Below are positions 7,250 to 26,761 of a DNA stretch of 37,614 nucleotides, piece after piece (positions within the stretch are counted from its first letter, which is position 1; every line of letters begins with the position of its first letter). Under the pieces are notes generated by a model. The model was not told the origin of the DNA. It was given only the letters and a program-made list of their open reading frames with translations, and made no database searches. Position numbers and translations under genes: made by a program. This DNA comes from an uncultured Alphaproteobacteria bacterium (lineage in GTDB: Bacteria; Pseudomonadota; Alphaproteobacteria; Caulobacterales; Parvularculaceae). The stretch spans positions 1 through 37,614 of the forward strand of contig CADEDN010000033.1 in NCBI GenBank assembly GCA_902826095.1, given 5' to 3'.

Positions 7250-7458
7250 CCGGCTCGCTGCGCTCGCCTCCTCCCCCGCTGCGCGGGGGAGGAAAGGCAG
7301 GCGGCGAAACATTTCCTCCCCCGCGAAGAGGGCGATCGCATTTGGCGCGCCACCCTCTCCCGCTTGCGGGAGAGGGTGGCGCGCCAAATGCGATCGCTCT
7401 GCCCCCGAAGCGGGGGAGGCGGCGGCGAAGCCGACGGAGGGGGTGTGTCACCCCATCA
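7250..7458. repeat. Composite of REP-like palindromic repeats (family B)
   Basis: The marC upstream gap contains several copies of a CCTCCCCCGC...GCGGGGGAGG unit, one of them a clean stem at 7270-7279/7283-7292. At the right end lies a unit reading, in reverse, ACCCCCTCCGTCGGCTTCGCC followed by CCTCCCCC, and at the left end a related inverted copy starting CCCCCCACC. The same unit occurs inside ileS at 23894-24009. This type of CCTCCCCCGCAAGCGGGGGAGG repeat is common in alphaproteobacterial genomes. A nearly perfect long hairpin (7332-7397) sits in the middle, as if a second element had inserted into the first. Confidence 0.88.
7332..7397. repeat. Perfect 32-bp inverted repeat with 2-nt spacer
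   Basis: Bases 7332-7363 are exactly complementary to 7366-7397, leaving TT as spacer; sterically the loop would be four bases. The arms begin GCGATCGCATTTGGCGCGCC and end CCCTCTCCCGC. There is no run of T on either side, so it is not a classic terminator. It lies inside the composite repeat between the two family B units. The absence of any mismatch suggests recent formation or maintenance by a replication-linked process. Confidence 0.95.
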
Positions 7459-23174: not shown

Positions 23175-26100
23175 ATGCCGACTGCATCGACAAAAGGCGC
23201 ATCGCCAAAAGACGCGACAGCCGACGCGAATGCGCGCGACTACAAGTCGACGCTGTTCCTCCCCGAGACGGACTTCCCGATGCGCGCGGGGTTGCCGAAA
23301 GCCGAGCCGGAATTTCTGAAAGCGTGGGAAGCGGCCGACATTTACGGTCAGCTGCGGAAGGCTTCCTCGGGACGCCCGAAATATGTCCTCCATGACGGGC
23401 CGCCCTACGCCAACGGCCATCTCCACATGGGGCACGCTTTCAACAAGATCCTGAAAGATCTCGTCGTTCGCTCGCGCCAGATGATGGGGTTTGACTCCAA
23501 TTACGTGCCAGGCTGGGACTGCCACGGCCTGCCGATCGAATGGAAAGTCGAGGAAGACTTCCGCGCCAACAACCGCGCCAAGCGCGACGTGCCGAAGGCC
23601 GAGTTTCGCGCCGCCTGCCGGGCCTATGCCGAGCGTTGGGTCGCCATCCAGCGCGAAGAGTTCAAGCGCTACGGCGTCGTCGGCGACTGGAACAATCCGT
23701 ATACGACGATGGCGTTCGAGGCGGAAGCGGCCATCGTCGCCGAATTGCTGAAATTCGTCGGCAACGGCCTCGTCTATCGCGGCTCGAAACCGGTGATGTG
23801 GTCGCCGGTCGAACAGACGGCGCTCGCCGAAGCCGAGATCGAATATCACGATCATCAGTCGACGACGGTGTGGGTGAAGTTTCCGGTCGCCGCCGCTTTC
23901 CTCCCCCGCTTGCCGGGGAGGTCCGACGCAGCCGGGGTGGGAGCCCGTCATGGCGCCCCCCCTCCGTCGCCTTCGGCGACGCCTCCCCCGCAAGCGGGGG
24001 AGGAAAGCGCGTCGATTGTCATCTGGACGACGACGCCATGGACGATCCCCGGCAACCGCGCGATCTGTTTCGGGCCGAAGATTTCCTACGGCCTTTACGA
24101 AGTGACGGCGATGGAAAAAGTCGTCGACCCGAAGAGCGGCGCCGAACTGACGCCATGGACGAAAATCGGGGAAAGACTGATCGTCGCCGACAAACTCTGG
24201 GAGAGCGTCAAGGCGGCGTCGAAGGTCGCCGAATTCAAGCGCCTTGGCGACGTCGATCCGGCAGGCTTTGCCTGCCATCACCCGCTCAAAGGTTTCCACG
24301 GCGGCTACCATTTTCAAGTGCCGCTTCTCGCCGGCGATCACGTCACCGACGACGACGGCACGGGCTTTGTCCACACCGCGCCCGGCCACGGACAGGAAGA
24401 CTACATCGCCTTCGTCTCGGCTTTCGGGACGCGAGCCGAAATTCCGCATACGGTCGATGAGTTCGGCGCGTTCACTGACGAGGCGCCGGGATTCGAAGGC
24501 AAGAAGGTGCTCGTCCTTGAAGGCAAGAAAGCGGGCGAGGACGGCGACGCCAACAAGGCGGTGATCGACGCGCTGATCCAGCACAATGCGCTGCTTGCGC
24601 GCGGGCGCCTCAAGCATTCCTATCCGCATTCCTGGCGCTCGAAAGCGCCGGTCATTTTCCGCAATACGCCGCAATGGTTCATCAGCCTCGACAAGAAGAA
24701 ACCGGACGGGCGCACCTTGCGCGAGGACGCGCTCGCGGCGATTGACGCAACGACGTTCACCCCCGCGGCCGGGAAGAACCGCCTATGGTCGATGATCGAG
24801 GGCCGTCCCGACTGGCTCGTCTCGCGCCAGCGCGCCTGGGGCGTGCCGATTGCGATCTTCGTCAACAGGAAGACCGGCGAAATCCTCAATGACCCCGCCG
24901 TCAACAAGCGTATTGTCGACGCCGTCAAGGCGCGCGGCGCCGACGCCTGGTTCGAGACGCCTTCGCAAATCTTCCTTGGCTCGGCCGGCTCCGACAATGA
25001 GTATGAAAAGATCGAGGACATTCTCGACGTCTGGTTCGATTCAGGATCGACCCACGCCTTCACGCTTGAAGGCCGCAAGGATCTGAAGTGGCCCGCCGAT
25101 CTTTATCTTGAGGGCTCGGACCAGCATCGCGGCTGGTTTCATTCGTCGCTCCTTGAAAGCTGCGGCACCAGAGGCCGCGCGCCCTATGACGGCGTTTTGA
25201 CCCACGGCTTCGTCCTCGACGAAGAGGGGCGCAAAATGTCGAAATCGCTCGGCAATGTCGTCGACCCTGCCGACATCATGAAGGAATACGGCGCGGATAT
25301 CCTTCGCATCTGGGTCGCGAGTTCCGACTATGCGGACGATCTGAGGATCGGCAAGGAGATCATGGGCTCCTCGGTCGACGCCTACCGCAAGGTCAGGAAC
25401 ACGATCCGATATCTTCTGGGCGCCCTCAACGGCTTTACGGAGGCTGAACGCTTGCCGGCGGCGAAAATGCCGGCGCTTGAGCGCTACATGCTGCATCTCG
25501 TCGCAAAGCTCGATGACGAGGTGCGCGCCGGATATGAGGCGTTCGACTTCAAGGGCGTCTGGCGCAAGGTTTTCGATTTCATGACGCTCGATCTGTCGGC
25601 GTTCTATCTCGATATAAGGAAGGACAGCCTCTATTGCGATCATCCGTCGGCGGATCGCCGCCGGGCGGCGCGCACGGTGATGGATGCCGTCTTCGATCAC
25701 CTGACCGCATGGATCGCGCCGGTGCTTGTTTTCACCATGGAGGAGGCGTGGGGCTTTCGCCACGGGACGGACAAGGGGTCGGTTCATCTTCGCCTCCTGC
25801 CCGAGCCGCAGCCGGCCTGGCGCGACGAGGCGCTGGCGACGCGCTGGCGGTCGCTGCGCGACATCCGCCGCGTCGTCACCGGCGCGCTTGAGGTCGAACG
25901 CCGCGAAAAGCGCATCGGCGCGAGCCTTGAGGCCTCGCCCGTTCTTTATCTTGCGGACGACGCGCTCATCGCCGCCGTAAAGGGCGTCGATCTCGCCGAA
26001 CTGTTCATTTCCTCGAATGTGAGCGTTGAAAAAGGCGAAGGGCCGGCGGCGGCCTTTCGGCTTCCTGAAGCCCCCGGCGTCGCGGCGCTCGCCGCCGCGA

Positions 26101-26225
26101 GCGCCCACAAAAAATGCCAGCGCTGCTGGCGGTATACGGATGATGTCGGCGCGAAAGCGGGTCATCCGGACGCCTGCGCGCGCTGCGCGGACGCGGTCGA
26201 CAGGCTGGACGGCAAGGCCGCGTGA
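23175..26225 (+). CDS. ileS: Isoleucyl-tRNA synthetase
   Basis: A 1016-residue class I aminoacyl-tRNA synthetase charging tRNA-Ile. The HIGH-type motif is HMGH (84-87) in [12 protein letters not shown]. The editing domain begins with [18 protein letters not shown] near 280. KMSKS is at 687-691, and the C-terminal zinc site has C981, C984, C1001 and C1004. It is some 40-60 residues longer than usual. The excess is explained by residues about 241-278, encoded by a palindromic repeat (23894-24009) inserted in frame just before the editing-site strand; that segment is Pro/Ala/Gly-rich and unlike any IleRS. All other landmarks are intact, so the enzyme is presumably active. The stop overlaps the lspA start region. 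Confidence 0.98.
23894..24009. repeat. REP-like palindromic element inserted in frame in ileS (family B)
   Basis: A perfect 19-bp terminal inverted repeat, CGCTTTCCTCCCCCGCTTG at 23894-23912 and CAAGCGGGGGAGGAAAGCG at 23991-24009, bounds a 116-bp segment. The interior CCCCCCTCCGTCGCCTTCGGC followed by GACGCCTCCCCCGC resembles the repeats at 7250-7458. It contains no stop codon in the ileS frame and keeps that frame. It is read as a low-complexity peptide ([18 protein letters not shown], then a [14 protein letters not shown] stretch). Confidence 0.93.
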
Positions 26226-26761
26226 CAATGAACGTCCGGACCATTCAGTCAAAAGCCGCCGATTGGTTCGCCGAGGCGCGCGCCAATCCGCTGTTCCTTT
26301 TCGGCCTGCTTGGCGCCGCCGCCGTCGCCGCGCTCGATCAGGCGACGAAATACTGGATCGTCAATATCGTCGAACTGCCGATCCATCGCCGGATCGAAAT
26401 CTCGCCGATTTTCGACCTCACTTATGTGCAAAATCGCGGCGCGAGCTTCGGCATGCTGGCCGGCGGCATGGGCTCGCGGGTGCTGCTGTCGACAATTTCG
26501 ATCGCGATCGCGACGGTGATGATCGTCTGGCTTGGGCGCCTTAAACGCCGGTTCGCGGCGGCAGGCGCGGCGCTGATCATTGGCGGCGCGATCGGCAATC
26601 TCCATGACCGCGTCCGCTACGGCTATGTGGTCGATTTCCTGGATTTCTCCGGGTTGATGTTCCCCTGGGTCTTCAATGTCGCCGACACCGCGATCAATGT
26701 CGGTTTCGCCTGCCTTATTCTTGACGCCGTCCTTCACAAGGATGGAAAAACGCCGGCGTGA
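26222..26761 (+). CDS. lspA: Lipoprotein signal peptidase (signal peptidase II)
   Basis: A 179-residue inner-membrane aspartic protease that cuts the signal peptide from prolipoproteins after lipidation. It has four membrane helices and the family motifs [42 protein letters not shown] (catalytic D138) and [11 protein letters not shown] (catalytic D155). Start is GTG at 26222 (overlapping ileS by four bases) or ATG at 26228; both fit, and neither has a strong ribosome site, so translation may be coupled to ileS. It is followed by two lipoprotein genes that would be its substrates. Confidence 0.96.

Follow-up and report, generated by a model that had tools for sequence, protein, structure and literature searches.

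How does an essential gene come to contain a long palindrome, and is the palindrome read as protein? This question is raised by the ileS gene of an uncultured bacterium of the Parvularculaceae (Alphaproteobacteria). We analysed a stretch of 37,614 nucleotides, called the window in the following, together with the draft genome to which it belongs (G000; 3.79 Mb in 58 contigs, 98.67% complete) and the genomes of relatives.

The palindromic repeat in ileS

The ileS gene (23175..26225, plus strand) is intact. Its open reading frame encodes an isoleucyl-tRNA synthetase (IleRS) of 1016 amino acids, which scores 806 bits against the TIGR00392 isoleucine--tRNA ligase model (cut-off 621). The downstream neighbour is lspA, coding for signal peptidase II (26222..26761, plus strand; open reading frame and family match). 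Within ileS we confirm a palindromic repeat dimer at 23894..24009, recognised by its inverted repeats. The dimer touches IleRS residues 240-279. Read in the ileS frame it is free of stop codons, and the gene stays in frame behind it. The in-frame position claimed by an earlier, sequence-only reading is therefore correct. That reading had also described the 116-bp segment as bounded by perfect 19-bp inverted repeats. Inverted repeats do bound the segment, but the arms are 28 nt long (left arm 23894..23921, right arm 23982..24009) and pair at 27 of 28 positions, with one mismatch and the outer 20 positions perfect.

The window holds two places with exact inverted pairs of 20-mers separated by not more than 200 nt, namely the ileS insert and 7332-7400. 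Among 20 block shuffles of the window, 18 contained no such pair and two contained one. The insert folds as RNA with -90.1 kcal/mol (z = -9.1), which none of 200 shuffles equalled. A scan of the window against Rfam gave no match above the gathering score.

The dimer has a core of 104 bp (23900..24003). The right half of this core is an intact half-unit (23958..24003, plus strand) with CCCCCTCCGTC, a small hairpin and then the CCTCCCCCGC hairpin; the pattern search lists 23958-23990, and the rest was read from the sequence. In the left half (23900 to about 23945) the intact tag is gone. The strand directly after the insert, with its codons at 24027..24056 (plus strand), presumably has an editing role in IleRS.

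Aligned against the 7-9 residues of the solved IleRS structures 8c9e and 1ffy, our IleRS has 37-39 residues at this place. An AlphaFold model of the IleRS (37 sequences, mean pLDDT 82.7) has bacterial IleRS as its best PDB matches. The pLDDT falls under 50 at residues 1-16, 247-276 and 619-621, although the 37-row alignment is shallow and low pLDDT is expected in any unaligned insert, whatever its true structure. Residues 247-276 lie between the predicted strands 222-238 and 279-285. The segment is predicted to be disordered, with a beta strand on each side, where the editing domain begins.

A dispersed repeat family

The sequence-only reading had related the insert to repeats at 7250-7458. 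This kinship is borne out by 52 nt which match at 79% in inverted orientation and by a half-unit of the same family at 7411..7443 (minus strand). The latter was found with the exact half-unit pattern and is crossed by no frame open for 50 residues on both sides. A related hairpin type (CCTCTCCCGC..GCGGGAGAGG) forms a long palindrome at 7329..7400 and is dispersed in the genome too.

A BLAST search of the bacterium's own genome with the ileS insert returned at least 63 rows at E 0.001 (best 40 of 100 candidates), counting both strands of palindromes and the ileS copy itself. With the exact asymmetric pattern of the half-unit we obtained 62 matches, against one for the reversed control. These 62 half-units cluster into 36 loci, which is a lower bound because diverged copies escape an exact pattern. 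The half-unit consists of CCCCCTC, a small hairpin and the CTCCCCCG hairpin, and many loci have two inverted half-units. Individual half-units carry CCCCCTCCGTC, CCCCCTCCGGC or CCCCCTCAGTC; for the terminal CGTC tag of REPs, PMC3733652 admits the variants TGTC and CCTC. The main stems of the family start with CCTCCCCC or GCTCCCCC.

A search for the Y1 transposase PF01797 at E 0.001 gave no match in the own draft genome, with the control being positive in 5 of 14 genomes; such a gene may lie in the part missing from the draft or may have been lost. One match above the cut-off is present in G009, a relative which also carries an ileS insert (see below).

Copies within other genes

A frame that stays open for 50 residues or more on each side is found at 15 of the 36 loci, and after family scans 11 of the 15 were counted as coding. 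The notion that such elements are normally confined to intergenic DNA does not hold in this genome, with 11 of 36 loci in frame inside genes. The search for further coding copies which the sequence-only reading had proposed was thus fruitful: ten in-frame copies exist besides the one in ileS. They are found in the genes for LeuRS (L121; N-terminus cut by the stretch taken), UvrA (L184), DnaE (L185; a single unit between the PHP and polymerase domains), squalene-hopene cyclase (L118, minus strand), an SO2930-type diheme cytochrome (L118, plus strand), pyruvate dehydrogenase E1 beta (L127), pyruvate dehydrogenase E2 (PdhC, L127), another E2 (L130), an amidohydrolase (L122) and a DUF11 protein (L120). 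The weakest of the 11 cases are the amidohydrolase, with modest scores above the cut-offs, and the DUF11 protein, in which no domain is recognised past the insert. Left out of the count were C1:247126, C4:67701 and C5:8395, where the open reading frames were unscanned or unconvincing by eye, and C7:103442, an open reading frame of 624 residues with no Pfam match.

Coding copies were recognised by their open frame, so broken insertions may be under-counted. A partial control comprised 20 open reading frames beside 12 of the 25 other loci and one place outside the 36; both flanks were covered at 7 of the 12 loci, and 5 of the 20 frames had no Pfam match. Among the matched frames at those 12 loci we found no gene split out of frame by the repeat. 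We also considered whether the element is unusually stop-free and found no support for this idea. Open frames numbered 37 of 60 in ten coding dimers, a set chosen as open in one frame, and 29 of 72 in 12 other dimers; 18 of these 22 dimers lay below the mean of their own shuffles and four above. The dimers have open frames because of their GC content.

The copies in PdhB, PdhC, the other E2 and UvrA sit between recognised domains. In squalene-hopene cyclase the insert coincides with an alignment gap against 1gsz, 46 query residues standing against 5. LeuRS has three palindromic inserts, at residues from about 199, 737 and 816, and two dispersed families are represented among them. Two of them are a second palindromic repeat, for which the own genome gave at least 58 rows (best 40 of 111 candidates, both LeuRS copies included). 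The PdhC insert is common to the congener G001. Its 35 codons show 11 nucleotide differences, with five synonymous and four replacement codons and neither frameshift nor stop, and a one-codon gap lies directly before it. The identity is 0.895 in the insert, 0.927 in the flank before and 0.854 in the flank after it.

Two side observations may be added here. The pyruvate dehydrogenase E1 beta and E2 genes are near each other (L127:1786-3270 and L127:3761-5077), with the repeat past the lipoyl domain in both. In G022 a repeat hairpin lies within the frame of a ValRS gene (L212), close to residue 558.

The IleRS loop in relatives

All 61 genomes searched had an IleRS match at E 0.001, the best match in G032 and G044 being weak and maybe another synthetase. 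Of 151 further loci encoding a relative, 80 were added. Counted from the F of FPV, the loop has 44 residues in the window and 8-60 over 111 aligned rows, among them duplicates and two copies of the window's gene. The nearest relatives are the congeners L038, L009 and L024, with a best identity of 88% in the columns used for the tree; they are without the segment and have unrelated loops of 23, 25 and 11 residues. The sequence-only reading had suggested an alignment to look for a clean gap at residues 241-278. Only one half of this expectation was met with: the segment is absent in the nearest relatives, but unrelated sequences of widely differing length stand in place of the loop, and for this reason no exact empty site can be named. 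The same reading had proposed a tolerant loop at the entry of the editing domain. This proposal is supported by the very variable length in relatives and by the predicted disorder between two strands.

A family search matched 54 of 62 genomes; ileS loops were read in fetched loci only. The match starts from the first query residue only in the window and in G009 and G022. In these three genomes the core is 104 bp long and is found at one common offset in ileS (L041/L014 in G009, L015 in G022). The ungapped identity of the core is 76% between window and G009, 69% between window and G022 and 84% between G009 and G022. A class-wide pattern with the repeat end placed before the WTTTPW codons was found in 6 of 385 genomes, where only the window's letters read as repeat; this is a weak negative, as the pattern needs exact codons and one repeat type. 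Loops of 42-43 residues in L012, L044 and L056 were inspected by eye as possible eroded repeats, with no support.

Origin of the ileS inserts

Do the three ileS inserts go back to one event? Random insertion and tolerance alone are insufficient to explain a core of identical length at an identical offset in three distant ileS genes. This exact agreement would suit an old single insertion, which was inherited, or spread to other species through local recombination, and which most lineages have since lost. In line with such a history the L041 and L015 inserts score 112 bits with each other, against 69 for the next copy found in their two genomes (G009: best 40 of 56 candidates). The trees, however, speak against it. 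On the ileS tree, which comprises 51 rows (89 before removal of near-duplicates) and leaves the loop out, the three carriers need three changes. For the whole gene the AU test rejects a clade of L041 and L015 (p = 3.3e-9) as well as a clade of these two with the window (p = 1.5e-80). The editing domain alone also rejects all three together (p = 5.5e-7), whereas L041 with L015 is not rejected there (p = 0.13), a further point in favour of a shared insertion. Moreover, the window insert is nearer to a copy in its own genome (109 bits) than to the L041 insert (89 bits), and the identity of L041 and L015 after the loop (0.94, 0.90) gives no sign of an exchange. On balance we hold the old single insertion to be possible but rather unlikely. 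At least two origins look likely, though the inserts may instead go back to an exchange of the loop alone or to an early insertion that many lineages lost.

An exchange of the editing domain between L041 and L015 was considered and rejected, as in the blocks after the loop L015 is equally similar to L054, which adjoins it on the tree (0.91, 0.90). Separately, we noticed that in the ileS block from window residue 286 the identity of L056 to its tree neighbour L015 is 0.77, with 0.91 for L054; a local replacement in L056 is possible.

The UvrA loop

UvrA of the own genome and of G022 has the repeat at one common loop. The UvrA family search matched 59 of 62 genomes, and 12 matches (the own one included) cross the loop without a break. 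In G001 the match ends at a contig end inside the repeat. We read 28 of 30 fetched UvrA loci (L225-L236 included), which are the best-scoring ones and hence enriched for inserts: 12 loops have 26-55 residues and 16 have 8-22. Per nucleotide, the 12 long loops fold with -0.38 to -0.64 and the 16 short ones with 0 to -0.55; one short loop is as low as most long ones, and the palindromes were therefore judged from the letters of the DNA.

As seen by eye, the inserts of G000, G017 and G022 are of a CTCCCCCGC type and those of G011, G064, G019, G068, G071, G066 and G013 of a CTTCGAGACGC/CTCCTCAGG type. A CCCTCTCCC type is seen in G009, with a hairpin resembling one common in the window's genome, and a GGGACTCG type in G003. 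The long UvrA inserts thus appear, as judged by eye, to be of at least three unlike palindromic kinds in 12 of the 59 matched Parvularculaceae genomes. Dispersal was checked for the CTCCCCCGC type alone, in G000, G009, G022 and G001. In an even draw of the class UvrA was matched in 63 of 72 genomes, and the match runs through the loop in the window's own genome and in two others. One of these two, G097 from another family, has a palindromic CACCCCAGC insert at the UvrA loop.

Discussion

We consider it very probable that the segment in IleRS is a tolerated copy of a dispersed palindromic repeat dimer, which could be read through in a loop of this essential enzyme. We suggest that the GC-rich dimer is composed of two inverted half-units with the tags pointing inward, and that one copy landed in ileS. 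Ribosomes should read through the stop-free dimer and would thereby add roughly 30-38 residues to IleRS. The addition would be located in a surface loop where the CP1 editing domain begins. Since the length of this loop seems to matter little, selection could have left the insert in place. We infer that the peptide is produced and does no harm.

Other explanations have to be weighed against this reading. The hairpin could work in the mRNA and be retained for this effect, either by slowing ribosomes as they reach the editing domain or by tuning the expression of ileS and lspA. Its very stable fold (z = -9.1) and the several coding copies between recognised domains (PdhB, PdhC, the other E2, UvrA) would be in keeping with such a role; regions between domains, however, are also simply tolerant, the nearest relatives lack the insert and its left half lacks the tag, and we regard this role as improbable. 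Still further from our expectation is a segment missing from the protein, through ribosomal hopping over the hairpin or through removal. It is true that known bypassing elements use GC-rich hairpins. A bypass, though, needs neither frame nor open codons, yet 11 coding copies, in a set chosen by open frame, are in frame and stop-free. We give equally little credit to an assembly artefact or a dead second ileS copy. Repeats do cause mis-joins and the genome is a draft of 58 contigs, but both flanks of the insert belong to one gene in one open frame, there is no second G000 match among the matches listed, down to about E 1e-19, and similar inserts occur at the same ileS site in two other genomes.

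Beyond the tolerated copy in IleRS we propose tentatively, and with more doubt than conviction, that certain surface loops of core enzymes are recurrent landing sites of several unrelated palindromic families across the Alphaproteobacteria. The IleRS editing-domain loop, one loop of UvrA and perhaps the linkers of E2-type proteins would repeatedly receive such repeats in frame and would keep supplying essential proteins with new translated segments. If the peptides are made, this lineage would be a natural experiment in which selfish-looking DNA becomes protein, with eleven genes of a single genome holding one repeat and with the same enzyme sites filled in different species by different repeats. 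The inserts map insertion-tolerant sites in IleRS, LeuRS, UvrA and other proteins. They also call for caution, since they may pass for errors or for functional domains.

Comparison with known systems

The closest parallel drawn by the sequence-only reading was to the Rickettsia palindromic elements. According to PMC10969869 and PMC3733652 these elements are dispersed, sit in the reading frames of unrelated genes and can be translated, and peptides encoded by such repeats have already been described there. The parallel stands, as the repeat described here is likewise palindromic, dispersed and in frame in genes of unrelated function. The likeness is one of description; our repeat is GC-rich, belongs to the Parvularculaceae and has IleRS, LeuRS and UvrA among its hosts. 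MITEs, as portrayed in PMC10969869, are similarly short and dispersed with inverted ends.

The GTAG/CGTC REPs come close in architecture. In PMC3733652 they are dimers of short hairpins with spacers of mostly 20-100 bp, and the CGTC REP stem has 8-9 bp, with A-T pairs almost always first. Like our repeat they form inverted hairpin dimers with a short spacer and many copies. The same source reports intragenic REPs in several bacteria, in tRNA synthetases of three species, in uvrA and in DNA polymerase genes, and a recB REP at about one site in two Xanthomonas. Unlike these REPs, our stems begin with CC or GC, not A-T, and the tag varies. A further difference to REPs with a RAYT is that no RAYT-type (PF01797) gene was found in the own draft genome. 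In the literature searched we found no closer precedent than PMC3733652 and PMC10969869, and no description of one enzyme loop filled in frame by several unlike repeat families. In summary, palindromic repeats that lie in frame within core genes are already known from these systems; the interesting part is the repeated use of the same site.
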